64,000 bases of DNA from Phyllobacterium myrsinacearum. Its GTDB lineage: Bacteria > Pseudomonadota > Alphaproteobacteria > Rhizobiales > Rhizobiaceae. A program made the translations under genes and the position numbers. Under the pieces are notes generated by a model. It saw only the letters and a list, made by a program, of their open reading frames with translations. It was not told the origin of the DNA and did not search any database. The stretch is from assembly GCF_002980555.1 (NCBI RefSeq), contig NZ_PVBT01000001.1, positions 1,352,422-1,416,421 on the forward strand. The letters run 5' to 3'. This document shows, one piece after another, positions 5,227 to 64,000 of the stretch (positions are counted from its first letter, which is position 1; every line of letters begins with the position of its first letter).

Positions 5227-5408
5227 GAATTTATACCCCAAGCCCTTATTGCAGCCAAGGCTAGCGGCAAAAGGTTTACGATCGGTTCACCATGTCGATT
5301 AACCATGTTGTTTCGGCGCCGCGAGAGAACTTTGATCCTTCCCCGTTGCGAACCCGCCGAAGCCGCCCTAGTCTTTCGCCAAAAATCGCATCGAGGAGAC
5401 GCCAGCAC

Positions 5409-8244: not shown

Positions 8245-9273
8245 ATGGGCATATTCGACACTCAGAAAGCGGGCTTCAGCTCCGGCGCATCCTGGATTTT
8301 GCAGGCGGCGCTGGCGGCAGCTCTCCTATCAACGGGCGCCTGGGCGCAGGCGCTCGCCCCCGAGATGGCCACGCCCGACGTGGAATTGCCGTCTATCCCC
8401 AGCATCAACCAATATGCCAACCCGAAAGCCCCGGCCAACAATCCGCTTGCCACGGAGGCCGAGCTGGTCCTGTCGGCCAAACTGGCGGAGAACGGCGAAA
8501 ACATCGGCCGCGGCCTCGTCTGGCGCGTGTTCGCGCCGGATGCCGATACGGATGGCAAGCTGCCATTGCTGGCCACGGCCAAGGGCGGCACGACATCGTT
8601 CAACCTCGCCCCCGGCAGCTATCTCGTGCATGTGGCCTTCGGCCGGGCGGGCGCCACCAAGCGCATCACCATGACCCGCGCCAAGCGCAACGAGACGATG
8701 ATTCTCGATGCGGGCGGCGTCAAGCTCAACGCGGTTCTGTCGGGCGGCGCGCGCATTCCGCAGGACCAGCTGCGATTCTCCATCTATGAGGATCACGAGG
8801 ATGCCAGCGGCGAACGCGCGCTCATCATTCCCGACGTCAAGCCGGAAAGCGTCGTGCGGCTGAATGCGGGGACCTATCAGATCGTCTCCAATTACGGCAC
8901 GGCCAATGCGGTCATCCGCGCGGATATCCGTGTCGAGGCCGGCAAGATCACCGAGGCCAATGTGGAGCACCGGGCCGCGCAGCTAACGATGAAACTGGTG
9001 CGGGAAGCGGGCGGCGAAGCCCTTGCCGATACCGCCTGGTCGGTGCTGACGACCTCGGGCGACATCGTGCGCGAAAGCGTCGGCGCCTTTGCCTCCATCG
9101 TCCTGGCGGAAGGCGAATACGTCATCATCGCCAAGAACAAGGACAAGATTTACCAGCGCGATTTCAAGGTCGTCGCCGGGCGCAACCAGGATGTGGAACT
9201 TCTGGCGACCAATGGCGCCAGCGCCGCCTCCACCGCCAATCAGCCCGCCAGCGGCGACGATCCGCTGGACTGA
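8245..9273 (+). CDS. Exported protein of unknown function
   Basis: A 342-residue protein with an N-terminal hydrophobic segment (residues ~17-34, WILQAALAAALLSTGAWAQA) ending in a possible signal peptidase site (AWA-QA). The mature part looks beta-rich and repetitive. It has phrases such as SFNLAPGSYLVHVAFGRAGA and LNAGTYQIVSNYGTANAVIR that resemble carboxypeptidase-regulatory or bacterial Ig-like repeats. I recognise no catalytic motif. No clear ribosome site precedes the ATG, so the start is uncertain, but it preserves the signal sequence. Its 3' end overlaps the convergent acyltransferase gene by 34 bp. Confidence 0.7.
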   Translation: MGIFDTQKAGFSSGASWILQAALAAALLSTGAWAQALAPEMATPDVELPSIPSINQYANPKAPANNPLATEAELVLSAKLAENGENIGRGLVWRVFAPDADTDGKLPLLATAKGGTTSFNLAPGSYLVHVAFGRAGATKRITMTRAKRNETMILDAGGVKLNAVLSGGARIPQDQLRFSIYEDHEDASGERALIIPDVKPESVVRLNAGTYQIVSNYGTANAVIRADIRVEAGKITEANVEHRAAQLTMKLVREAGGEALADTAWSVLTTSGDIVRESVGAFASIVLAEGEYVIIAKNKDKIYQRDFKVVAGRNQDVELLATNGASAASTANQPASGDDPLD

Positions 9274-10088
9274 GGTTTGACCGGAGCCAGCGCAAACACC
9301 GCGTCATACATATAATCCAGCAGGTGCTTGCGGTCGGCCAGCGGCGCCAGTTCCGGCCAGTCCATCGTCCGGCCGATGCGCACGGTGATGGCCTTGCCGG
9401 ACAGTTTGCGGAATTCGCGGATGAGCAGCGAGATGCGCAGCGTCATCGAAATCTTGCTGGCGAGATGAAAAACCCGGCCATTCTGCCCGCCGAAATAGAC
9501 CGGAATGACCGACGCCTTGGCCTGCTGCACCAGCTTAGCCGGAAAAATCTTCCAGGGCAGATCCTCCGCCCGGCCAAAGCCCTTGGGCGCCGTGGCAACC
9601 CCGCCCGCCGGGAAGACGACGATGGTAACGCCCTCCTTCAACAGGCGTACCGCCTCATGGCGGGTGGCCATGTTCATCGCCACCGCTTCCTTGGTTTCGT
9701 CGAAGCAGACCGGCAGCGCATAGGGGCGGATTTCCGGCACCTTCATCAGATCGTTGTTGATGAGCACGCGGAACGGCCGGCCGAGCTGTTCGGCCAGCGC
9801 CAGCGCGGCGATGCCGTCGCCGATACCGAAGGGATGGTTGGCGACGATCACCAGGGGCGTATCGGGTACATGCTGCGGCGGCCACTGGTCCGCAACGTCG
9901 AGCCTGATGTTGATGAGGTCCATCATGCGGCAGAACACATCGATCCCCGCCGGGACGATGTCGGTGCGCCAGGCATTGTAGAGCCGGACATAGTGGTCGC
10001 GGCCGGACAGGCCTTCAATCGAACGGATCAGCCATTGGGTGATGCGCGACTGGGTGTCATTGGCGTAGGAGAGTTCTCTGAACTGCAC
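9240..10088 (-). CDS. Lysophospholipid acyltransferase family protein (PlsC-like)
   Basis: A 282-residue acyltransferase of the PlsC/LPLAT superfamily. The catalytic HX4D box is VANHPFGIGDG (residues ~84-94), and the second acyltransferase motif VVFPAGGVAT is at ~156-165. Members acylate lysophosphatidate or lyso-lipids at the membrane, including ornithine lipids (OlsA-like). No strong transmembrane helix is obvious, so peripheral association is likely. It is transcribed toward the exported-protein gene. Its upstream region holds a 53-bp direct repeat and a double-hairpin repeat, so its promoter region has been remodelled. Confidence 0.85.
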   Translation of the reverse strand: MQFRELSYANDTQSRITQWLIRSIEGLSGRDHYVRLYNAWRTDIVPAGIDVFCRMMDLINIRLDVADQWPPQHVPDTPLVIVANHPFGIGDGIAALALAEQLGRPFRVLINNDLMKVPEIRPYALPVCFDETKEAVAMNMATRHEAVRLLKEGVTIVVFPAGGVATAPKGFGRAEDLPWKIFPAKLVQQAKASVIPVYFGGQNGRVFHLASKISMTLRISLLIREFRKLSGKAITVRIGRTMDWPELAPLADRKHLLDYMYDAVFALAPVKPQSSGSSPLAG

Positions 10089-10125
10089 GATCGCATCCCG
10101 GCAAATAATGAAACGGCTGAATAGT

Positions 10126-10178
10126 CACGCAACTCCATGACAACGTGATGAAAGTCACCACGCTGTCACAAAGCAATG
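10126..10178 (+). repeat. 53-bp direct repeat, left copy
   Basis: Matches 12858-12910 in the same orientation at 50 of 53 positions. It contains an internal dyad, imperfect in this copy (TGACAACGTG / CACGCTGTCA). The two copies bracket the RES-Xre pair and the EamA gene, so they may be the boundaries of an inserted segment. Confidence 0.85.
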
Positions 10179-10189
10179 GGTGGCATCTG

Positions 10190-10358
10190 CTAGTGGAACG
10201 AATTTGACATTCGCATCCCATTTGACATCACGCGGGGCAGGCGAATGTCAAATTCAAAGTTCCACTAGAATTATAGACTTGCTAGTGGTCCTTCGATTCT
10301 GACATTTGCCTGAATGGCTGGTATCAAAGGGGTGCAAATGTCAGAATCGGACCACTAG
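10190..10358 (+). repeat. CTAG-bounded double-hairpin element, copy 1
   Basis: Two adjacent palindromic units, A (10190-10268, 79 bp) and B (10282-10358, 77 bp), are separated by a 13-bp AT-rich spacer. Each unit begins CTAGTGG and ends CCACTAG and has long arms that would fold into a cruciform. The whole 169-bp block is repeated in reverse orientation at 18111-18279 with the same unit and spacer lengths, about 93% identical by eye. No coding potential. It resembles a non-autonomous palindromic mobile element; no transposase is in the window. Confidence 0.85.
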
Positions 10359-10424
10359 ATTACTTTGTGAACTGGCGCAACAGAGGACACATTTTATGAC
10401 TCTTCTACGGCCACATGCCGCCTG

Positions 10425-11147
10425 TTACGTCACCGCCAAAACTGCTCCCGTGTCGTACTGACGCACAAAGTCGACCCGCGTGCCGTTCCAGTGATAACAA
10501 TAGTGCCGTCCCTGGACGGGAATGGGTATCGCGTCCGGCCAGAAGATACCGATGCACCGTTGACCGCGCATTCGAACGCTGTTCCACAGGAGGCCATCGC
10601 TTCCCGCGGCCCGAAGCCCACGTCCCTCAACCTGCGAAGCGGTGTAATCGTGCGGATGAAGAACGTCGGGCACCGCGTTCACGTCGTCCAGTGCCCGGTC
10701 CAGGCTGCCCACCAGGACACGGAAGTCCGAGGTCCAGCCCGGAGACTGAGGTGTTGAACGCATGAATTCCTGATGGTGGTGTATGGTTTCGGCAACGGCG
10801 ACTTCTTCACTGTCGCCTGCATAATAGATACCATAGCTTCCGTCCGTGAAGCGGCCCGGCCGCCCTGTGGAGCAATGGACAAAGGGGGCCATGACATAAC
10901 TGGCGCCGATGCCCGACACGCGACGGTGCGCGGGTACCTTGCCAAGATCGCCCACCTCAAATCGAATGCGCGGATTCGTTTTCGCCTCGACAGCGACCAG
11001 CGCCTCCCAGTCGCGCGGATCGGCGATGTCCTCGAACAAATCGATGGGCGGATAGATGGATCGGATAATGCGGTAGGTTTTGGGCCACTGTACCTGGGTT
11101 CGGACAGCAAGGCCACTTACCACGCACTGCGCTCCGCATCGAGCCAT
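10425..11147 (-). CDS. RES-domain toxin of a RES-Xre toxin-antitoxin pair
   Basis: A 240-residue RES-family protein. RES toxins resemble ADP-ribosyltransferases and degrade NAD+, causing growth arrest. Family features are the conserved Arg in TYRIIRSIYPPIDLFE (residues ~24-39), the Glu in AVAETIHHHQEF (~118-129), and the Ser in LLWNSVRMRG near residue 190. Two starts are possible: ATG at 11147, overlapping the antitoxin gene by 31 nt, or GTG at 11123, overlapping by 7. Overlap downstream of the Xre gene is the usual antitoxin-first order. The pair lies in a segment bounded by direct repeats. Confidence 0.9.
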   Translation of the reverse strand: MARCGAQCVVSGLAVRTQVQWPKTYRIIRSIYPPIDLFEDIADPRDWEALVAVEAKTNPRIRFEVGDLGKVPAHRRVSGIGASYVMAPFVHCSTGRPGRFTDGSYGIYYAGDSEEVAVAETIHHHQEFMRSTPQSPGWTSDFRVLVGSLDRALDDVNAVPDVLHPHDYTASQVEGRGLRAAGSDGLLWNSVRMRGQRCIGIFWPDAIPIPVQGRHYCYHWNGTRVDFVRQYDTGAVLAVT

Positions 11148-11530
11148 TCACGCATTACCGCCAGATCAGAAAGCTCGCCTTGAAGCATCACATCGAGCGC
11201 TGACTTACCGCCAAAGGCCGTATTGGGCGCTTTAATCCACTCATATCCTCTTGCCGGGTCCTTAAACAGGTGCCGGACGCCCTTATGAATCCCCATCAGA
11301 TGCGCCATCCGCATTTTCAGGTCTCGATCGACACGCCCTACATTGCCTTCTTTCCAACGCGCCCAGGTGCGGGCCGACAAACCACCGAGCAAGGTGCAGG
11401 CTTGTGCGTCGGTGAGTTTCCAGGCGTTGAAGAGGTTCACCGTCGTGCGGGCAAGCGCCCCTGCTTCCACATCGGTGATTTCAGCAGATGACCGGTTGAA
11501 TGGAGTCGAAGCGATAGGCTGGAGTTGCAT
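11117..11530 (-). CDS. Xre/MbcA/ParS-type antitoxin
   Basis: A 137-residue partner of the RES toxin. The N-terminal helix-turn-helix region includes NLFNAWKLTDAQACTLLGGL (residues ~33-52) and TWARWKEGNVGRVDRDL. The C-terminal DUF2384 (MbcA/ParS/Xre) part includes LFKDPARGYEWIKAPNTAFG and the closing SALDVMLQG segment, which in this family contacts the toxin active site. ATG at 11530 follows a GGGAGG ribosome site; an in-frame start at 11551 is less likely. It is likely autoregulated through the palindrome at 11567-11580. Confidence 0.9.
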   Translation of the reverse strand: MQLQPIASTPFNRSSAEITDVEAGALARTTVNLFNAWKLTDAQACTLLGGLSARTWARWKEGNVGRVDRDLKMRMAHLMGIHKGVRHLFKDPARGYEWIKAPNTAFGGKSALDVMLQGELSDLAVMREWLDAERSAW

Positions 11531-11566
11531 GGCAACCTCCCTTTCTGGCATAAACCTAACAGATTA

Positions 11567-11580
11567 TTGCCAATTGGCAA
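11567..11580 (-). promoter_or_regulatory. Palindromic operator candidate of the RES-Xre operon
   Basis: TTGCCAATTGGCAA is a perfect 14-bp palindrome 37-50 nt upstream of the antitoxin start. Xre antitoxins of this family bind dyads in their own promoters, so this is the best candidate site. No convincing -10/-35 pair was found at a fixed distance. Confidence 0.5.
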
Positions 11581-11693
11581 GAATTATTTCTTCGGACAGC
11601 TTTTGCGAAGGACAATCTCGTCGCGCTCCGTTGGATGCTTTTTGGGGGCCGATCAGATTAATCTTAACCGCTTCGACCCTTGCCATAGGCAAT

Positions 11694-12608
11694 TCAAGCT
11701 CCCGTTCTGACCGTGGCCTGCACTGCTGCTTTTTCACGGCGATCTCCTGCCCACATAATGAGCGAGGCTGTTAAAATCAAAACTCCACCGAGAAATTGCA
11801 GATATCCCAGGCGCTCGCCAATGATCAGGAACGCCAGACCTGCAGCCCACAAAGGTTCCAGTAAATAAGTAAACGATACGAATACCGCAGACAGGTGCTT
11901 TTGAGCATATGTCGAGAACAAAACCGGCAGCATCGTCGTAAATATAGCCGAGTAAGCACCAACAAATACAAAGTCCCTGCTATGAAACACCTGAAGTGGC
12001 GCGGTTCCGATTCCAATATAAACAACAATCGCAAGTGCAGAAACCGTAAGCATTTGTGCTGCCCACAAGATCAGCGAATTGGCTCTCTCCCCAGCCCGGC
12101 GTTCCAGCAATAGAATATAGAGAACAAAAACAGCCGTTGCGACAAATGCTAAAATGTCTCCACGCCAATTGCCACTGGCATTGAAACCGCTGGAGATGAG
12201 GACCACTGCTCCAGCGAATGCAATAAGCGCGGCCAGAAGATGGCGCGATAGAAGCTCTATGCCGAAAACAAGCCATGCAGCGAAGACTGTCATGGGACCA
12301 ATGAGTGCAGGATAAAAACCCGCGTTCGTCACCATCGTGAAAGAAATCGACCATACGCTTATGAACATGTTCAAAAACAATACGGATCCCAGCAAGAGGC
12401 CTGAAACCACTGTATCTCTATCCAGTTCCTTCAGATGGAAGACGAGAATCCCAATGGAAATCGGAAACAAGAACAAGGCTTCAAGGGACAAAAAACTCCC
12501 CGCATCTATCCAGTCTAATGTCTTTGCGACAACGACATAGTAGCTTCCGGCGAGCGCCGGATTACACAAAATAGCCGCTCGCGGAAGAATATCGGAAAGA
12601 TTTATCAA
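11694..12608 (-). CDS. EamA/DMT-superfamily transporter
   Basis: A 304-residue membrane protein with about ten hydrophobic segments in two five-helix halves, the layout of the drug/metabolite transporter (EamA) superfamily. The second half ends with SFTYLLEPLWAAGLAFLIIG and a GERLGYLQFLGGVLIL segment typical of EamA repeats. The substrate cannot be inferred. The gene is more AT-rich than its neighbours (47% GC in the 12121-12180 line by count), which together with the flanking direct repeats suggests acquisition by transfer. There is no partner gene in the same operon. Confidence 0.85.
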   Translation of the reverse strand: MINLSDILPRAAILCNPALAGSYYVVVAKTLDWIDAGSFLSLEALFLFPISIGILVFHLKELDRDTVVSGLLLGSVLFLNMFISVWSISFTMVTNAGFYPALIGPMTVFAAWLVFGIELLSRHLLAALIAFAGAVVLISSGFNASGNWRGDILAFVATAVFVLYILLLERRAGERANSLILWAAQMLTVSALAIVVYIGIGTAPLQVFHSRDFVFVGAYSAIFTTMLPVLFSTYAQKHLSAVFVSFTYLLEPLWAAGLAFLIIGERLGYLQFLGGVLILTASLIMWAGDRREKAAVQATVRTGA

Positions 12609-12857
12609 GATAATCTCTCAGCCGATTTCATGCCAAAGTGATTGAGAATCCGTCAGAGCAATTTTCAAGAACGACCCGCCAAAGTCGCCGGGATAGCATG
12701 AAACTGCTTCGTTTTCCCCGGCCATGGCGTGCCCATCCACATTGCATTTGTGGAGGCAGTTTATCAGGCGATGTGCATCCCAGGAATCCGCAGAGCTACC
12801 GAGGCATACAAGCCCGCCTTGCTCAGCGCCCACTGAAACAGCTGTATTAACCCGGCG
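12609..12857. other. Intergenic DNA between EamA and the right direct repeat
   Basis: This stretch plus the following repeat makes ~309 bp without a confident gene. A minus-strand open frame (12618-12908) runs through the 53-bp repeat and shows no recognisable domain or good ribosome site, so it is not called. The EamA promoter should be here. Confidence 0.5.
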
Positions 12858-12910
12858 CACGCAACGCCATGACAGCGTGATGAACGTCACCACGCTGTCA
12901 CAAAGCAATG
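12858..12910 (+). repeat. 53-bp direct repeat, right copy
   Basis: Partner of 10126-10178 (50 of 53 positions identical). It lies 7 bp past the thrS stop and contains a perfect 10-bp dyad, TGACAGCGTG / CACGCTGTCA with an 11-nt loop. It could therefore also act as the thrS 3' hairpin, although no T-tract follows on the minus strand. Confidence 0.85.
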
Positions 12911-12917
12911 TACGGAC

Positions 12918-14900
12918 TTACTGCGCCGCGGCGCGTAGCAGGTCCGGCGGCGTGGCTTCCTCGCCGAGCTGGCGGATCGCATCGTCAAGGCTGAGCGACG
13001 TCTGGTTCTGCGAACCCAGACGGCGCATGTTCACCGTCCGCTCCTCCGCCTCGCGCATGCCGCAGACGAGAATGACCGGGACCTTCTGCAGGGAGTGCTC
13101 GCGCACCTTGTAGTTGATCTTCTCATTGCGGAAGTCGGTGATGACCTGCAGCCCCGCCGCCTTCAGTTCCTTGGCGACCTGCCTGCCGTAATCGTCGGCT
13201 TCCGTGGTGATCGTGGCCACCACCACCTGCACCGGCGCAAACCACAGCGGCAGATGACCGGCAAAGTTCTCGATGAGAATGCCGAGGAAGCGCTCCATCG
13301 AACCGCAGATGGCGCGGTGGATCATGACAGGCTGCTTCTTTTCCGACGTGGAGTCGATATAGAAGGCACCGAACCGCTCGGGCAGGTTGAAATCGACCTG
13401 CGTCGTGCCGCATTGCCATTCGCGGCCGATGGCGTCCTTCAGCGTGTATTCGAACTTGGGACCGTAGAAGGCACCCTCGCCCGGCAGAATGCCGGTCTTG
13501 ATGTCGTTCGACTGTTTTTGGATCTGCTCCAGCACGCCCATCATCACGCTTTCAGCCCGATCCCACAACGCATCGGAACCGACACGCTTTTCCGGGCGCG
13601 TCGACAGCTTGATGGTGATCTCGTCGAAGCCGAAATCCTTGTAGACCGACAGGATCAGGTCATTGATGCGCAGGCATTCGGCCGCCATCTGCTCGTCCGT
13701 GCAGAAGACATGCGCATCGTCCTGCGTGAAGCCGCGCACGCGCATCAGGCCGTGCAGCGCGCCCGATGGTTCATAGCGGTGCACATTGCCGAATTCCGCA
13801 AGCCGCACCGGCAGATCGCGGTAAGACTTCAAGCCATGCTTGAAGATCTGCACGTGGCCCGGACAGTTCATCGGCTTGAGCGCAAAAACACGTTCGTCAT
13901 CGGTTTCATCGCCGGCGACCGTGACCTTGAACATGTTGTCGCGATACCAGCCCCAGTGACCCGACGTCTCCCACAGGGATTTGTCCAGCACCTGCGGCGC
14001 ATTGACTTCCTGATAGACACCGTCGAGACGGCGGCGCATGTAGCTGACCAGCGTCTGGAACATGCGCCAGCCCTTGGCGTGCCAGAACACGACGCCGGGG
14101 CCCTCCTCCTGGAAATGGAACAGGTCCATTTCGCGGCCGAGCTTGCGGTGATCGCGCTTTTCCGCCTCTTCCAGCACGTGCAGGTAGGATTGCAGCTCGG
14201 CATCGGTGGCAAAAGCGGTGCCGTAAATGCGGCTGAGCATCGGGTTGTTGCTGTCGCCGCGCCAGTAGGCGCCGGCCACCTTCATCAGCTTGAAGGCATT
14301 GCCGATCTGGCCGGTCGAGGCCATGTGCGGGCCGCGGCACAGATCATACCAGTCGCCCTGCGCGTAAATCTTCAGGTCCTGCCCTTCGGGAATGGCATCG
14401 ACCAGCTCGACCTTGTAGGCCTCGCCCTTGTCGGCAAAAACCTTGCGGGCTTTTTCGCGCGACCAGATTTCCTTGGTGAACGGCCGGTTGCGCGCAATGA
14501 TCTCGCGCATCTTCTTCTCGATGAGCGGCAGGTCATCGGGCGTGAACGGCTCGTTCTTGGCAAAATCGTAATAGAACCCGTTCTCGATCACCGGGCCGAT
14601 GGTGACCTGGGTGCCCGGAAACAGCTCCTGCACGGCCTCGGCAAGGACATGGGCGCAATCGTGCCGGATCAGCTCGAGCGCACGCGGATCGTCGCGGGTC
14701 AGGATTTCAATCTTGCCGGAGTCCTGCAGCGGATCGGACAGATCGCGCACGACGCCGTCGACCGCATAGGCCACGGCCTTCTTGGCCAGGGATTTCGAAA
14801 TGGATTCGGCAAGTTCCGCACCGGACAGGGCCGCGTCGTAGTCGCGCTTCGAGCCATCGGGGAATTGCATGGATACAGTTTTGGAAACTGTCTGTGACAT
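12918..14900 (-). CDS. thrS: Threonine-tRNA ligase
   Basis: A 660-residue class II aminoacyl-tRNA synthetase. In order: N-terminal TGS domain (residues ~1-65); the editing (SAD) domain with [17 protein letters not shown] (~80) and the [12 protein letters not shown] Zn-type motif (~186); the catalytic core with [20 protein letters not shown] and [14 protein letters not shown]; and a C-terminal anticodon-binding domain. The length is normal. ATG at 14900 follows a TAGGAGC ribosome site. It charges tRNA-Thr in the cytoplasm. Accessory genes flank it on both sides (RES-Xre/EamA downstream, Xre/nucleotidyltransferase upstream). Confidence 0.98.
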
Positions 14901-15048
14901 CAGTTGCTCCTATCCAGTCCCGCCAACAATCGCGGGTGGTGTTTCATGACCGGAACGGCTCCGGCGAGCGGACTTTTATGCGCAGTTTTGCCCGGCGTAA
15001 AGTGGCGGTTGCGGAAAAGCGGGTTTTACGGTCAAGGATGCGTGTGGG

Positions 15049-15300
15049 CTATTCCCGGCGCAAGCGCACGCCCGGACCGCTTGCGGAGGCCTGGCCGTCG
15101 TCAAGCAGTTCGACACCGGCGGTGAACAGCGCGCTGCGAATGGCTTCCAGCGTGTCGATCCTGCCGCGAACGATTGCTTGGCCTGCCCCCTCGAAATTAC
15201 GGATCGTGTTGATGCCAACCCCGGCAGCGTCGGCAAGGGCTTTCTGGTCCATCCCCGCCAAGGCACGCGCCGCTTTGATCTGGTTCCCTGATACCGGCAT
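15049..15300 (-). CDS. Small Xre-family HTH regulator
   Basis: An 83-residue single-domain helix-turn-helix protein. The HTH covers residues ~5-60 (KAARALAGMDQKALADAAGV, then the recognition helix NTIRNFEGAG), followed by a short tail with GVELLDDG and GPGVRLRR. The same tail pattern appears in the two Xre genes at 29936-30410, so the three are one family. ATG at 15300 is preceded by CTGGAG; an upstream in-frame start would add an unrelated leader. Divergent from the nucleotidyltransferase at 15476, which it might regulate. Confidence 0.82.
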   Translation of the reverse strand: MPVSGNQIKAARALAGMDQKALADAAGVGINTIRNFEGAGQAIVRGRIDTLEAIRSALFTAGVELLDDGQASASGPGVRLRRE

Positions 15301-15398
15301 GCATACTCCAGACACTTTTATTTGGGTTTTACCGCGTTGTGGCGCTGGCACAAATCGGCAACCCTACGCATCGGGATCGAACGCACCATTATATAGAT

Positions 15399-15464
15399 AA
15401 CAATAGTAAACTAAAGATATCTATTGTTTTATAAAGATATTCATATATAAAGGCAGATATCTTT
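15399..15464 (+). promoter_or_regulatory. Nested dyads upstream of the nucleotidyltransferase gene
   Basis: An AT-rich divergent promoter region with two interleaved inverted repeats: AACAATAG (15399-15406) with CTATTGTT (15421-15428), and AAAGATATC (15413-15421) with GATATCTTT (15456-15464). They are likely binding sites for the winged-helix part of the nucleotidyltransferase, for the Xre protein, or for both. Confidence 0.45.
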
Positions 15465-15475
15465 CAGGAGTTATC

Positions 15476-16141
15476 GTGGCCCGCCCAAAGCCCCAGAGCG
15501 CTATTCGCTTTCCTCTCTCTTCGGTTTTCGGAACCGAAGCCAACGTCAGGGTCGTGCGTGAACTGTCACGCCATGGCGGTCAACTGGATGCATCCACTCT
15601 CGTCAAGAGAACAAAACTGACGCTGCCTTCGGTGCTCAATGCGCTTTCCATTCTCGTCGCGTTCGGCATACTTGACGAAGTGGGCAGTGGACGCACTCGG
15701 CTTTTCAGCATGAGCCGAACATCGCCGCTCAACACGTCCATTCTGTCTCTCTTCGACGCAGAAGAGGCACGCTTCAATGCTGTTATCGATGCTCTAAGAG
15801 AGTGCGTAGCCTCACTCGGCAACAAAGTGATAGCGGCATGGATTTATGGCAGTGTCGCCCGGGGAGAAGATCGTGCGGAAAGCGATCTTGATATCGTCCT
15901 TATCGCTCAAGACGCCGATGTTTCGTCTGTGCAAAGCGGGAGCGTCGATTTTCTATTGGCCAGAGGTGAGGACCTATCGTTCTCACCATCGGTCAATACG
16001 CTTTCACGCGCCGATCTTAGACGATTAATGGGAAACAATGATCCGTTGTGGCAAGCACTTGCGGCCGATGCTTTGGTGGTCAGCGGTCCGCGCCCCACAT
16101 CCATCTTTCAAGCAGTTCCTGATAAGGCAATTCCAACGTGA
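15476..16141 (+). CDS. Winged-helix plus nucleotidyltransferase protein (MNT-like antitoxin candidate)
   Basis: A 221-residue protein with an N-terminal winged HTH (residues ~15-85, with TLVKRTKLTLPSVLNALSIL) fused to a minimal nucleotidyltransferase domain. The signature is GSVARGEDRAESDLDIVLI (residues ~125-143), with the conserved Gly-Ser and the metal Asp pair D137/D139. MNT enzymes of this type are antitoxins that AMPylate or otherwise inactivate a HEPN toxin. The start is GTG at 15476 with CAGGAG 5 nt upstream. Its stop overlaps the next start by 4 nt (GTGA). The dyads upstream suggest autoregulation. Confidence 0.82.
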   Translation: MARPKPQSAIRFPLSSVFGTEANVRVVRELSRHGGQLDASTLVKRTKLTLPSVLNALSILVAFGILDEVGSGRTRLFSMSRTSPLNTSILSLFDAEEARFNAVIDALRECVASLGNKVIAAWIYGSVARGEDRAESDLDIVLIAQDADVSSVQSGSVDFLLARGEDLSFSPSVNTLSRADLRRLMGNNDPLWQALAADALVVSGPRPTSIFQAVPDKAIPT

Positions 16142-16350
16142 CAAGAAGCGGCTCCACGAAAGCAGTTGACGCCAGCCACGGCTTAAATCGCCTACCAAAG
16201 GCCCAAGAAACGAGATTGGCCCGAATACTCGGGAATAAGGACTTGGCCCAATATGGCGGGCGTTTCATGCTGCTCTCTGACGCCCAGTCACTGCTAACCC
16301 AACTCGAAGAATACGCCGCATGGGCCGAATCCGAGATGACCCGCGCTTAA
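16138..16350 (+). CDS. Short partner of the nucleotidyltransferase, resembling the C-terminal half of a HEPN protein
   Basis: A 70-residue protein starting with GTG inside the stop of the upstream gene (4-nt overlap), so it is the operon partner. The sequence from LARILGNKDLAQYGGRFM (residues ~27-44) to the end has two helices and matches, from memory, the C-terminal half of HEPN partners of MNT proteins (K-x-x-AQY, then LEEYAAWAES). The N-terminal half, which would hold the RX4-6H RNase motif, is not present and there is no room for it upstream. It is either a decayed or shortened toxin or a distinct small protein. Function is an inference. Confidence 0.55.
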   Translation: MTRSGSTKAVDASHGLNRLPKAQETRLARILGNKDLAQYGGRFMLLSDAQSLLTQLEEYAAWAESEMTRA

Positions 16351-16391
16351 TCGGCACCCGGGTGGCGTTAGATCAATGCTGACAACCCATT

Positions 16392-16754
16392 CTATCTATT
16401 TTTGCTCACCCCCCAATACCGCCAGGGCATGTACCAGACGAAACGCTTGTCCAGCGTTGCCGGTACCGGATCAAGGCCGCTGGTGCCGCCAGGCCCGCAG
16501 CGCACGAACCGGAACAGGCCCATCCACCCGCCGGTCCACAGGCCATGGCGGGCGATGGATTCATAGGCATATTCGGAACAGGTTGGCAGGTGGCGGCAGG
16601 AATTGCCGATGAAACCCGACAGCGTCAGCTGGTACAGCCGGACAAACGCCGTGCCGAACAGTCGCCCCGGCGTCTTGCGCCACGGCCCGCTCCAGTTGCG
16701 GGAATATTTTTTGCCCGCCGCAGGCGGATGGTTGTGGGCCGGGTCAGCGCACAT
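16392..16754 (-). CDS. yidD: Membrane protein insertion efficiency factor YidD
   Basis: A 120-residue YidD-family protein that assists YidC-dependent membrane protein insertion. It contains the signature [20 protein letters not shown] (residues ~40-59) and [20 protein letters not shown] (~60-79), with the family cysteines in CRHLPTCS and [15 protein letters not shown]. The amphipathic N-terminus fits inner-face membrane association. Here it is next to an iron-sulfur scaffold gene (7 nt apart), and not in the rnpA/yidC locus, as is usual in Rhizobiales. Confidence 0.93.
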
Positions 16755-17487: not shown

Positions 17488-18114
17488 ATGGATGCGGTAA
17501 TCAAAAGTTTGCAGTCACCGACTGGCAATCAGAATAATCTACGACGCCCAACCCAGGAAGAAGCGGAAGCCGCCGTTCGCACGCTGCTGCTCTGGGCTGG
17601 CGACAATCCGGACCGCGAAGGCCTGCTCGACACGCCGCAGCGCGTGGCAAAAGCCTATAAGGAACTGTTTTCGGGCTATCATGAAGACCCGGAAGAGGTG
17701 CTCGGACGCACCTTTGAAGAAGTTGCCGGCTATGACGACATCGTCTTCATCAAGGACATACCGTTCTTTTCGCACTGCGAGCATCACATGGTGCCCATCA
17801 TCGGCAAGGCGCATGTCGCCTATCTGCCCGATGGCGAGAAAGTGGTCGGCCTGTCAAAGATCGCCCGCGTCGTGCATATCTATGCCCGCCGCCTGCAGAC
17901 GCAGGAGAGCATGACCGCCCAGATCGCCAATGCGATCCAGGGAGCGCTGCGCCCGCGCGGCGTGGCCGTCATGATCGAGGCCGAGCATATGTGCATGGCC
18001 ATGCGCGGCATCCGCGTGTCCGGTTCAACGACGACCACCACCACCTTTACCGGTGCCTTCAAGAGTGACGTCAACGAACAGGTGCGCTTCATGACCCTTC
18101 TCAAGGGTCGCTAG
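17488..18114 (+). CDS. folE: GTP cyclohydrolase I
   Basis: A 208-residue type I GTP cyclohydrolase that makes 7,8-dihydroneopterin triphosphate, the first step of folate synthesis. It has the zinc Cys/His ligands in [20 protein letters not shown] (residues ~93-112), the [20 protein letters not shown] helix (~121), and [20 protein letters not shown] near the end. ATG at 17488 follows a GGGAGA ribosome site. The upstream open frame to 16603 is non-coding. The TAG stop at 18112-18114 falls inside the CTAG that begins the double-hairpin repeat at 18111, so the repeat supplies the stop codon. Confidence 0.97.
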
Positions 18115-18279
18115 TGGTCCGATTCTGACATTTGCATCCCGTTGATACAGGCCGTTCAGGCAAATGTCAGAATCAAAGGACCACTAGCAACTATAAGATT
18201 CTAGTGGAACTTTGAATTTGACATTCGCATGCTGCGCGTCATGTCAAATGGGATGCGAATGTCAAATTCGTTCCACTAA
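18111..18279 (-). repeat. CTAG-bounded double-hairpin element, copy 2
   Basis: The reverse-oriented copy of 10190-10358. Unit B is 18111-18187 (77 bp) and unit A is 18201-18279 (79 bp, last base changed from G to A), with a 13-bp spacer. It begins exactly at CTAG within the folE stop and ends 27 bp before the hisI start at 18306, so it fills the folE-hisI gap. Unit lengths match copy 1 exactly; identity is about 93% by eye. Confidence 0.85.
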
Positions 18280-21457: not shown

Positions 21458-22087
21458 ATGCGGCACGACGGAACCAGCGAGATCTTCGCCTACTGGAATG
21501 ATCTGCGCGGCACCCGCGCAGCGCCGGAACGGCGTGAGATTTCACCCGCCCTCATCCGCTCGCGCCTGTCCGACACGTTCATCCTGCGTGCCAGCGGCCC
21601 CGGCGAAGCGCGGTTCCGGCTGGCGGGAACCCGTATCTGTTCGATCTATGGCCGCGAACTGAAAGGCCAGAGCTTCAGCTCCATCTGGCAGGCCAAGGAC
21701 AAGGCCGTCATCGCGCGCATCGTCGCCAGCAGCCTGACCAGCAAGACCGTCGTCCAGTCGGCCTATGAGGGCAAGAGCAGCCGCGGGCGCAAAATGCTGT
21801 TCAATCTCATCCTGCTGCCCCTCGCCAACGAGGTGCATGAACGGCATCTTCTCGGCATGATCGCACCGGCAGGCAAGCCGTTCTGGCTGGAATCCGACGC
21901 GATCATCGAAAACAGCCTGCGCTCGATCTCGATGATCGATCCGCGCAAACCGGCCAACAGGCCTGCCGGTGGCCACCGGGCTGAAGATCATAAACCCCTG
22001 ATATCCAATACACTCCTGCCTGCTCCCAGCGGCAGCCGCCGGGTCAGGCATCTCATGGTCTTCGACGGCGGGAAAATCTTGGATTAG
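21458..22087 (+). CDS. PAS_5-type sensory domain protein
   Basis: A 209-residue protein with a PAS_5-type domain (residues ~1-140, with FAYWNDLRGTRAAPERREIS at the start and the ALIRSRLSDTFILRASGPGE region). Rhizobial PAS_5 proteins are soluble sensors of unknown partners. ATG at 21458 is preceded by AGGAAG; an upstream ATG at 21410 is possible. The stop TAG at 22085-22087 is the first three bases of the terminal repeat of the MITE at 22085. The MITE insertion therefore defines the C-terminus (GGKILD), and the native end may have been lost. Confidence 0.82.
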   Translation: MRHDGTSEIFAYWNDLRGTRAAPERREISPALIRSRLSDTFILRASGPGEARFRLAGTRICSIYGRELKGQSFSSIWQAKDKAVIARIVASSLTSKTVVQSAYEGKSSRGRKMLFNLILLPLANEVHERHLLGMIAPAGKPFWLESDAIIENSLRSISMIDPRKPANRPAGGHRAEDHKPLISNTLLPAPSGSRRVRHLMVFDGGKILD

Positions 22088-22358
22088 AGCAAGTTTTGTT
22101 TATACGGAGCCGTTCTGCCGGAGGGAATTTGGTTCAAGGTCGAGGGGTTTGGCGAGACCGATGTCTTTCCATCGGGCGAAGCCGAAGCCCGATGGAATTG
22201 GGCCAAATTCACCCGGCCCTCCGGGTTTCCGGCTGGCGGACACCCACTTTGTCAGGCAGCTTCGTCCGATGGGTAAACATCGGCCTCGCTACCTTCCGCG
22301 TGGATTGTCTCGCCATCCGAGAAACAGAACTGGCTTCGTATAAACAAAATTTGCTCTA
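22085..22358 (+). mobile_element. MITE-like element with ~33-bp terminal inverted repeats
   Basis: The left end TAGAGCAAGTTTTGTTTATA (22085-) and the right end, read on the opposite strand from 22358 as TAGAGCAAATTTTGTTTATA, match over ~33 bp with two mismatches and one gap. The element is 274 bp and is flanked by TA at both ends, as expected for TA-targeting (IS630/Tc1-like) elements. A smaller internal hairpin is at CCATCGGGC/GCCCGATGG. Open frames inside it are read-through of the palindromes and encode nothing recognisable. It supplies the stop codon of the PAS gene. Confidence 0.8.
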
Positions 22359-29522: not shown

Positions 29523-29723
29523 ATGAACGGCAAACTCAAAAACCTGCTCCCTTTCAGCGATGAGGAGGAAGTCCGGATACAGCGGGGCATTGCCGAAGAT
29601 GCGGACAATCCCGAACTGACCGATGAGGAAATGCGGCAGATGCGGCCGTTCAGGGAGGTGTTTCCCGAACTTGCGCGTGAAATCGACAAGGAGATCGCCG
29701 CGCGCAGCCGCCCGGAAAGATGA
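29523..29723 (+). CDS. BrnA-N-like mini-protein 1
   Basis: A 66-residue protein resembling the N-terminal half of BrnA antitoxins (EEEVRIQRGIAEDADNPELT, then the RPFREVFPELAREI core), ending where a BrnA would begin its ribbon-helix-helix DNA-binding half. GGAAAGGGAG precedes ATG 29523. A 111-bp stretch (29604-29714) is duplicated at 29814-29924 with about 105 of 111 bases identical. No BrnT toxin is adjacent. It is the first gene of a four-gene operon with two Xre genes. Function is unknown. Confidence 0.7.
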   Translation: MNGKLKNLLPFSDEEEVRIQRGIAEDADNPELTDEEMRQMRPFREVFPELAREIDKEIAARSRPER

Positions 29724-29738
29724 AGGGAAGCTCATCTG

Positions 29739-29939
29739 ATGGCTGTCAAACGCGAATTGCAGAAAGCGTTCCAACCGGACCGCGGCTATACAAGAGAAGA
29801 CTGGGATGCCGTCGACAACCCCGAACTGACCGACGACGAAATGCGGCAGATGCGGCCGTTCAGGGAGGTGTTTCCCGAACTTGCGCGTGAAATCGACAAG
29901 GAAATCGCCGCGCGTGGCCGCCCGACACGAAGAACGTGA
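29739..29939 (+). CDS. BrnA-N-like mini-protein 2
   Basis: A 66-residue paralogue of the previous gene: residues ~26-62 are nearly identical (DNPELTDDEMRQMRPFREVF). The N-terminus differs (MAVKRELQKAFQPDRGYTRE) and the end reads GRPTRRT. The stop overlaps the Xre gene start by 4 nt (GTGA), which ties it to the Xre pair. It also lacks the DNA-binding half of BrnA. Recent tandem duplication is likely. Function is unknown. Confidence 0.7.
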   Translation: MAVKRELQKAFQPDRGYTREDWDAVDNPELTDDEMRQMRPFREVFPELAREIDKEIAARGRPTRRT

Positions 29940-61853: not shown

Positions 61854-64000
61854 ATGTTTTTTCATGCCACAGGTGCGGCTTTTTCCGCGCGTTCTGATTG
61901 TCTGTCCAAATTCCGCAACCATCTGATGAGCAGCGTCTGCGCCGCGCTGATCATCGCCGCTTCCGGCTCCGGCGCCCATGCGCAGGATGTGCCGGGCAAG
62001 TATTTCAATGCGGATGGTTCAAAGACGGATGATCTGGAGAAGGCGGCGGCGACGTGGCGGAACGATCCAGAATTCAGAAGAAATTTTGGCGTCGGCGCGA
62101 TGAAAACAGAATACGCTTATGCCAGAGGTTTGAGTGGTGCCCATATAAAACTTGGAGTGTTTGATAACGGAACGTGGAGAGGGCACTCGGAGTTCGCCGA
62201 TCCCGGCAAACTAGAAACCATCACCACGACGGGCACACGGGCCTATACGGATCCTTATGTGTTGGCTGCCAAACAATCTGGAAACAAAGGAGACCCATTC
62301 GTATTGGATGGAGGGGATTCAATCCCTTGGGCATCCCGAAGTATATATCATGGCACAGGGGTCGCAGGCATTGTCGGAGCTCTTCGCAATGGAAAAGGCA
62401 TGCATGGTATTGCATTTAACTCTAGCATCGTTGCCGCAAGCAACGGCGACCCAGGACCAGAGGACGGCATCGTTGAAGGCAACGACGAGAACATATACCG
62501 CGCTGGGTTTGATGCTCTCATTAATGCAGGCGTGCGAGGTATCGTCAACAGTTGGGGTATCGGTTATGATGAAAAAACAAATGGAATTAACCTGCCGCCA
62601 CCTTTATACCGCGTCGGTACCAAACCCTACAAATTGAGCGATGGTATTGCTCAATATTATTCCAATCCTACACATGGGACTTATGCCGCCGCCGAAAAAG
62701 TAGCACGGGCTGGCATTGTGCAAGTTTTTGCGGCAGGAAATGATTACGGTTCCGAACCGGAAAGCATTCCGGGCCTTCCCTATTTCAGGCCGGATATTGA
62801 AGCTAACTGGATCACCGTAGTAGCGCTGACATCCCAAAGATCGCCTGCAAATTATACCAACTTTTGTGGTTATACGAAATGGTATTGCGTTTCTGCTCCT
62901 GGTCATCTGACAAACACGTCTTCATTCAACGGAGGCGGTGACAAAAAAATAGAAACTTATGAAGATTTTACCGGCACGTCTGCAGCCGCTCCGCACGTAC
63001 TTGGAGCATTGGGATTGGTATTCGAACGCTTTCACTACCTTACAAATGCACAGGCACGCGATGTATTACTGACAACGTCTAATCATCTTGGAACGGGTGA
63101 TGCAAACACACCTGATAAGCTTTATGGCTGGGGACTCATTGACCTGCAGAAAGCCATGAACGGCCCCGGTCAGTTCATGGGCCGGTTTGACGCCAATCTG
63201 GGTGCTGGTGTGCGGGACACCTGGAGCAACGACATCTCGCAGGTGGCGCTGGACCAGCGCAAGCGGGAAGAAGCGGAGGAAGTGGCGGCGTGGGCTGCGC
63301 GCAAGAAGGCGCAGGGCTGGGAGAGCGGTATTGGCGAGAAGCAGCGCTCGGAGCTGGCGAAGATAATCGAGCCAAAATTTTCCTCGGACAAGCTCACAAC
63401 CGCTGAGGGCCTGTTGGCTAATCTCTTCAAAGCCGTGGCTGCTAACGCTACCACTAAAGTTAATCTGGATGTAGCATTCGCAAACAGCAAAATCAAAGCA
63501 GATCCGCTCGCCAAAGTCCTGCTTGCAGACTTCACAAAAGCCTATCCGAAAGCAGTCACAACCTACGGAACAGATCCCAGCCTCGATTATGCGGCCTATA
63601 AGACCAACCGCAAGGACGATCCGCTTGCAGTGTTGAAACAGTCAATGCTGGCGGAACTGATGATGCCACTGGAAACAGAATACCAGTTCACCGAAACCCG
63701 CACGGCTTATCTCTCCGGCAAGCTTGCCGACGTGAAATCCTATGATGCGGGCCTGACGAAATCCGGTGCGGGTTCGTTGTGGCTGACGGGCAAAAACAGC
63801 TATCGCGGCGATACGGTGATCAATGGCGGCGAACTCGGCATCGGGCTGGGCGGTTCGATCATTTCGGCATCGGTCATCAATGATACCGGGCTTCTGACCG
63901 TCGATGGCACGGCAGCGGCGGTGACGGCCAATGCCGGCGGGCGATTGAAGATCAATACGACGGGGGTGACCGGCGATCTCACCTTGAATGGCGGCTTTGC
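61854..64000 (+). CDS. Subtilisin-family autotransporter, cut by the window end
   Basis: An open gene of at least 715 codons. A long N-terminus and signal segment are followed by an S8 serine protease domain: Asp D104 in KLGVFDNGTW, His H166 in YHGTGVAGIVGALRNG, oxyanion Asn N296 in FAAGND, and Ser S376 in FTGTSAAAPHVLGALG. After it comes a helical, Lys/Glu-rich insert (REEAEEVAAWAARKKAQGWE) and then PATR-like repeats (GSLWLTGKNSYRGDTVINGG). The beta-barrel should follow beyond 64000. ATG 61854 or 61926 are both possible starts. The protease part is AT-rich (43% GC in the 62641-62700 line), the flanks are GC-rich (63% in the 63181-63240 line). Confidence 0.9.
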   Translation, partial: MFFHATGAAFSARSDCLSKFRNHLMSSVCAALIIAASGSGAHAQDVPGKYFNADGSKTDDLEKAAATWRNDPEFRRNFGVGAMKTEYAYARGLSGAHIKLGVFDNGTWRGHSEFADPGKLETITTTGTRAYTDPYVLAAKQSGNKGDPFVLDGGDSIPWASRSIYHGTGVAGIVGALRNGKGMHGIAFNSSIVAASNGDPGPEDGIVEGNDENIYRAGFDALINAGVRGIVNSWGIGYDEKTNGINLPPPLYRVGTKPYKLSDGIAQYYSNPTHGTYAAAEKVARAGIVQVFAAGNDYGSEPESIPGLPYFRPDIEANWITVVALTSQRSPANYTNFCGYTKWYCVSAPGHLTNTSSFNGGGDKKIETYEDFTGTSAAAPHVLGALGLVFERFHYLTNAQARDVLLTTSNHLGTGDANTPDKLYGWGLIDLQKAMNGPGQFMGRFDANLGAGVRDTWSNDISQVALDQRKREEAEEVAAWAARKKAQGWESGIGEKQRSELAKIIEPKFSSDKLTTAEGLLANLFKAVAANATTKVNLDVAFANSKIKADPLAKVLLADFTKAYPKAVTTYGTDPSLDYAAYKTNRKDDPLAVLKQSMLAELMMPLETEYQFTETRTAYLSGKLADVKSYDAGLTKSGAGSLWLTGKNSYRGDTVINGGELGIGLGGSIISASVINDTGLLTVDGTAAAVTANAGGRLKINTTGVTGDLTLNGGF

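Follow-up and report, generated by a model that had tools for sequence, protein, structure and literature searches.

The thrS locus and its repeated hairpin

We examined the region between an acyltransferase gene and the essential tRNA-synthetase gene thrS in the soil bacterium Phyllobacterium myrsinacearum, on a stretch of 64,000 nucleotides of contig NZ_PVBT01000001.1 (hereafter the window), where a predicted RES-Xre toxin-antitoxin pair and an EamA-family transporter gene lie between two 53-nt direct repeats, each of which contains a hairpin. The features of this region are as follows.

9240-10088, minus strand: acyltransferase gene (PF19576, PF01553), the left chromosomal flank, adjoining thrS in 20/20 congeners
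10126-10178: left 53-bp repeat copy, on the acyltransferase side, with its hairpin at 10138-10168; its counterpart in P. calauticae (genome G003) differs at 1 of 53 positions
10190-10358: palindromic miniature inverted-repeat transposable element (MITE) of 169 bp, with ends CTAGTGG and CCACTAG, in a duplicated TA; a later insertion
10425-11147, minus strand: predicted RES-domain toxin gene (PF08808, E 2.7e-31)
11117-11551, minus strand: predicted Xre/MbcA/ParS antitoxin gene (PF20432 and PF09722)
11694-12608, minus strand: EamA (DMT family) transporter gene (PF00892), A+T-richer
11701-12704: block missing from G003, with nearly the whole EamA gene inside and without a long direct repeat; limits are the ends of BLAST blocks
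12705-12857: right end of the original insert, common to G003 (95% identical over 147 bp)
12858-12910: right 53-bp repeat copy, just downstream of thrS, with its hairpin at 12870-12900
12918-14900, minus strand: thrS, threonyl-tRNA synthetase gene (TIGR00418, E 4.9e-201), the right chromosomal flank

A repeat search returned the two copies exactly where an earlier note on this DNA had placed them, identical at 50 of 53 positions (94%) and with starts 2732 bp apart. Apart from a tandem pair at 29604-29934, the other direct repeats of at least 34 nt in the window were 34-42 nt long with 66-76% identity; as these are shorter and less alike, the 53-bp pair is not a product of chance. The same pair was present in the assembly of P. 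calauticae, which makes an assembly artefact unlikely. The right copy lies 7 bp from the 3' end of thrS and the left copy 37 bp from the start of the acyltransferase open reading frame (ORF). The RES, Xre and EamA genes, all with Pfam matches, are on the minus strand between the repeats, and the G+C content over EamA, at 0.47-0.53, is below that of the acyltransferase gene and thrS (0.59-0.63). Eight other ORFs of at least 80 amino acids between the repeats gave no Pfam match, and an Rfam search of 9000-16600 gave no match.

Searching 20 Phyllobacterium congeners (one genome per species) with window positions 9240-12960 revealed what the locus looks like when unoccupied. In 17 of them one hairpin lies between the acyltransferase gene and thrS, without an insert; an eighteenth, G015, also lacks an insert and its hairpin has decayed. 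Both the proposal of the earlier note that one repeat copy is the original hairpin downstream of thrS and its expectation of an empty site with a single copy in relatives were thus borne out, and the same genes were not seen in the same place without the repeats. The remaining two congeners carry inserts. In G003, two hairpins surround RES-Xre, without the EamA gene and without the 169-bp MITE there. In G008, the insert is a different one, of 0.74 kb, with a gene for a transporter of the LysE family (PF01810, E 4.3e-27). This insert is bordered on the left by part of the hairpin, which stops near the apex, and on the right by the whole hairpin; the two borders have 14 bp in common (GACAGCGTGATGAA), and this 14-bp repeat falls inside the 53-bp repeat. 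The matching empty site for the G008 insert was found in G016. The congeners therefore show a real and well-polarised insertion at a native hairpin, with hairpin sequence duplicated, in two different events. With a different gene occupying this hairpin in G008, the site has the look of a small hotspot for insertions; it is this repeated targeting of one gene-end hairpin that is the interesting point, the parts being ordinary. Five genome pairs were also compared along syntenic stretches (59-83 kb per genome), with overlaps surveyed wherever lengths differed by at least 250 bp. Elsewhere, overlaps of at least 10 bp were found at a tandem-repeat region (48 bp), a palindromic insert (17 bp) and one further place (10 bp).

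Allowing up to three mismatches, the 31-bp hairpin core matched only the two repeat copies in the whole genome (5.4 Mb). The earlier note had called for a genome-wide search to see whether the 53-bp sequence always borders cargo: it is confined to thrS, but does not always border cargo, none being present in 17/20 congeners. A reading of the sequence as a scattered repeat was rejected, as the whole hairpin was found at thrS only. A single hairpin at thrS in most congeners, with none scattered, marks a single-copy feature native to the locus rather than a mobile repeat, and the 53-bp sequence was thereby shown to be the native thrS 3' hairpin of Phyllobacterium, present in one copy in nearly every examined genome. 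Of 394 family genomes, five had the exact hairpin pattern, which misses diverged hairpins, and all five are Phyllobacterium (the draw held eight members of the genus); the pattern also occurred in eight stretches of a contig collection, every one Phyllobacterium. As for its parts, across 21 genomes the 15-base left half was found elsewhere at one place (G020); seven places away from the thrS sites carried the 13-base right half (one each in G002, G008, G011 and G017 and three in G016). A possible phage attachment site was considered because a 15-mer (TGACAGCGTGATGAA) was present in 56 viral stretches. The best extended score was 23, the highest among 500 shuffled-flank controls was 22, and no hairpin was visible at the six best-scoring viral sites; these matches were treated as chance.

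The hairpin has a G+C-rich stem of 14 bp, and its two copies in the window gave folding z values of -3.6 and -4.8 on the thrS strand. Over 22 aligned sites, 306/308 stem pairs are formed on the thrS-sense strand versus 276/308 on the opposite strand, counts that are not independent because the sites include related rows and the repeat pairs of two genomes. The gap between strands is mainly due to G-U pairs, which become A-C on the other strand. Covariation is weak: one of 14 stem pairs has changed on both sides (U-A to C-G) among four distinct sequences, shuffles match that single covarying pair in 361/500 cases, and further pair types do not exceed the shuffled level. The strand difference is the better argument for the hairpin. 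Compared with an intrinsic terminator, the G+C-rich hairpin is present but the U-tract is missing: no T run follows the stem or occurs in the sequence, and a terminator scan reported nothing at the hairpin coordinates. On sequence grounds the hairpin would be the 3' hairpin of the thrS message, and we infer termination itself. Among 29 thrS loci of other genera, 25 have a hairpin of -15 kcal/mol or lower in the 90 nt that follow the stop codon (26/30 counting the window; the 30 loci are the best matches of 46 genomes). In a dinucleotide-shuffle control 48/120 sequences reached -15 kcal/mol and 12/120 equalled or beat the real hairpin, so that thrS 3' hairpins in other genera represent an enrichment over shuffles, not proof.

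The inserted pair is a predicted RES-Xre toxin-antitoxin system. A RES domain (PF08808) adjoins an Xre/MbcA/ParS protein (PF20432, PF09722), all above cut-off; the NCBIfam antitoxin model NF049845 scored 30.4 of 90 bits, under its cut-off, and a PDB sequence search with RES gave no match at E 0.001. PMC12457610 names ParST, MbcTA and NatRT as RES-Xre toxin-antitoxin systems. The window pair has the same make-up, a RES toxin and an Xre helix-turn-helix (HTH) antitoxin with an MbcA/ParS C-terminal domain; no difference from the known systems was found in the module, and the insertion site alone is particular. Among the best 20 of 53 records, the module (window 10410-11581) showed 86-88% DNA identity to Rhizobium and Pararhizobium plasmids, which points to horizontal spread; the module is a common one, frequent on Rhizobium plasmids. 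RES-Xre is not bound to the repeat and travels independently of it: besides these plasmids, G012 and G015 carry RES-Xre elsewhere in their genomes, and the 16 kb read there contained no 53-bp repeats.

Order of events within the segment

The RES-Xre region of P. calauticae is 93% identical to that of the window, and identity over the final 150 bp of the insert is 95%. Its left and right hairpin copies are a single base apart (T/G), a difference that is present in the window copies too. With both the repeats and the T/G difference common to the two genomes, the duplication of the hairpin must predate their split. The stretch common to both at 12705-12857 also contains the tail of a plus-strand open frame (ending ...RRATEAYKPALLSAH), present in G003 with few residues changed, which is possibly the remnant of a truncated gene.

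Besides the MITE at 10190-10358, the genome has 15 further copies, full or partial; the site of this MITE in G003 is an uninterrupted CTAG. A second MITE, at 18111-18278, is likewise matched by a clean empty site in G003 (GCTAAACC), and both MITEs duplicate TA, which we take to fit elements of the IS630/Tc1 type. Given the exact empty TA site, the MITE was gained in the window lineage and not lost by G003. G003 has a MITE copy of its own near the place of window 5309-5345, without a counterpart in the window and with less clean borders. The 169-bp MITE family has been recently active.

The EamA block, of about 1.0 kb, was delimited by BLAST, the window blocks stopping at 11700 and resuming at 12705 on adjoining G003 bases; its ends are nearly blunt against G003, with a 4-bp overlap. 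Searches for EamA relatives came back empty both in a draw of 150 other family genomes (limit E<=1e-60) and in one of 189 other class genomes (limit E<=1e-45), and relatives on plasmids were remote (26-32%, five plasmids). The EamA segment is most likely a separate, later insertion, the alternative being loss in G003. As G003 has the repeats and RES-Xre without EamA and the MITE, the segment was built in layers. The view of the earlier note that a transporter and an addiction module had arrived as one inserted cargo of ~2.7 kb is accordingly not supported, the MITE being later and EamA most likely so; its cargo idea is right in part only.

How the hairpin came to be duplicated

We tentatively favour, as a reading just short of an even chance, a decayed or trans-mobilised islet at a putative att-like site. 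This is preferred because the 14-bp repeat of G008 lies within the 53-bp repeat in a dyad site and because the anatomy resembles attL and attR. A RES-Xre segment of ~1.6 kb entered the thrS hairpin before the split of the window strain and P. calauticae; on this reading the step would have been site-specific, with the dyad hairpin serving as an attB-like site. A whole hairpin was left on each side, so that thrS still ends in a 3' hairpin of its own while a further copy lies downstream of the inserted same-strand genes. Later, the window lineage received the 169-bp TA-duplicating MITE to the left of RES, as the empty site shows, and likely the EamA segment to the right of Xre. The segment between attL and attR would then be a remnant or a non-autonomous islet of the kind of a cis-mobilizable element (CIME), its recombinase lost or acting in trans, and the site would have been used a second time by the unrelated LysE insert of G008.

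As defined in PMC5704250, a CIME is an element that has lost its integration and transfer genes and kept attL and attR. The thrS segment resembles one in having its cargo between direct repeats at both ends (the 53-bp pair, whose att role is putative) after a housekeeping gene, in its one-copy empty site in relatives (17/20 congeners plus the decayed site) and in lacking an integrase. It is unlike a CIME in being much smaller and in using a hairpin after a protein gene, and no related complete element or cognate recombinase was found at the same site.

Several observations weigh against this islet. Recombinases were sought in three genomes, those of the window strain (G000), G003 and G008. The absence of an integrase reported in the earlier note was upheld, with neither tyrosine (PF00589) nor serine (PF00239) recombinases within either insert or on the 1.4-Mb window contig, which ends at window position 64000. 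The distance to the nearest PF00589 gene is ~90 kb in G003 and ~356 kb in G008, and PF00239 serine resolvases are on other contigs in all three genomes; no recombinase-bearing element occupies the thrS hairpin in the 20 congeners. The two repeats are of unequal length (53 vs 14 bp). The longer one spans both sides of the hairpin, its ancestral copies probably differed at a single base, and this fits duplication in place as well as an attP from outside. Inserts of ~1.6 and 0.74 kb are also small for integrative elements.

A somewhat unlikely but serious alternative is capture without a recombinase, in which the hairpin stalls or breaks the DNA and repair inserts a foreign fragment while re-copying the hairpin in part or whole. 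Direct repeats of variable length would result from template switching or from end-joining with fill-in at a staggered break, and the two lengths seen (53 and 14 bp) both consist of resident hairpin sequence. In G008 the left copy ends near the apex and the right copy restarts near the hairpin base, the two events carry unrelated cargo, and no recombinase lies near the site in G000, G003 or G008. Ku genes (PF02735) were detected in 20 of the 21 Phyllobacterium genomes searched, at least two in each; the window genome has no match, but the event is older than the split between it and G003, where Ku is present. A study by Dupuy et al. (2019) reportedly connects end-joining with the acquisition of heterologous DNA in bacteria, to go by its title. 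A simple stall does not foresee, however, that the 53-bp repeat reaches 10-12 bp beyond the hairpin on each side. It also counts against capture that 37 of 40 chromosomal end-joining events in Sinorhizobium meliloti were deletions of 1-4 bp and not long duplications, according to PMC10932983. The wider idea that the RNA hairpin at the 3' end of a housekeeping gene is a recurrent landing site free of recombinases, where repair captures foreign genes and re-copies the hairpin, is rather unlikely. Were it true, a whole hairpin would stay behind the old gene and capture would be cheap for the host, and hairpin-duplicating capture would be a general low-cost chromosomal entry for small genes, including toxin-antitoxin pairs and transporters.

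Homologous recombination with a conspecific circle or fragment that already carried the hairpin and RES-Xre, by Campbell-type integration or one-sided homology, appears improbable. The repeats would be the homology used, and 53 bp, near the lower limit for RecA-type homology, together with the 1/53 difference between the G003 copies, would suit it. It leaves unexplained how a hairpin first came to border RES-Xre, as well as the insert of G008. Sliding identity across window 1-22000 in 11 congeners showed no break specific to the thrS side, a pattern compatible with such recombination and with its absence. We consider it very improbable that EamA and RES-Xre moved whole as a 2.7-kb composite cargo from which G003 later lost EamA and the MITE. 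Everything does sit between the repeats, and, with only two carriers, G003 may have lost EamA; yet the precise empty TA site denotes insertion of the MITE, the EamA block is missing from G003 with nearly blunt ends, and the other family and class genomes drawn yielded no EamA within the set E limits.

A transposon or insertion sequence finds little to match here, as no transposase family was detected in RES, Xre, EamA or the eight other ORFs, no inverted repeats were seen by eye at the segment ends, and we know of no transposase with a duplication as long as 53 bp. Integron cassettes likewise carry single-gene or toxin-antitoxin cargo beside a foldable site, whose attC ends bear the motifs GTTRRRY and RYYYAAC. 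Unlike them, the 53-bp repeat lacks these end motifs, as compared by eye, and in nearly every congener it is a hairpin of the host itself. A literature search gave nothing on a thrS hairpin insertion site among the matches listed.

Whatever its route, the locus offers a clear view of before and after, with 17 one-hairpin empty sites and two different inserts, and shows small cargo entering a chromosome without a visible recombinase and with the thrS 3' hairpin preserved. Should the hairpin itself prove to be the target, one could look for insertion hotspots by scanning genomes for conserved hairpins at gene ends.

Neighbouring genes and repeats

Directly upstream of thrS (window 15049-16141) lie an HTH gene and a gene for a winged-HTH nucleotidyltransferase, the latter matching PADLOC PDC-M05A (E 2.2e-16). 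Neither had a DNA match in the compared stretches of 11 congeners (for G019, the thrS side only). With these upstream and the insert downstream, thrS is flanked by accessory genes on both sides.

Further along, at 22087-22357, an insert of ~260 bp with inverted ends (AGAGCAA-TTTTGTTTATACG) is absent from G003 and G009 and is MITE-like; the overlap of 17 bp at this palindromic insert (22.1-22.4 kb) was seen in one comparison and was just 3 bp against G003. The tandem pair at 29604-29934 consists of two direct copies of 121 nt, 92% identical and 210 bp apart, and its length differs in G003.

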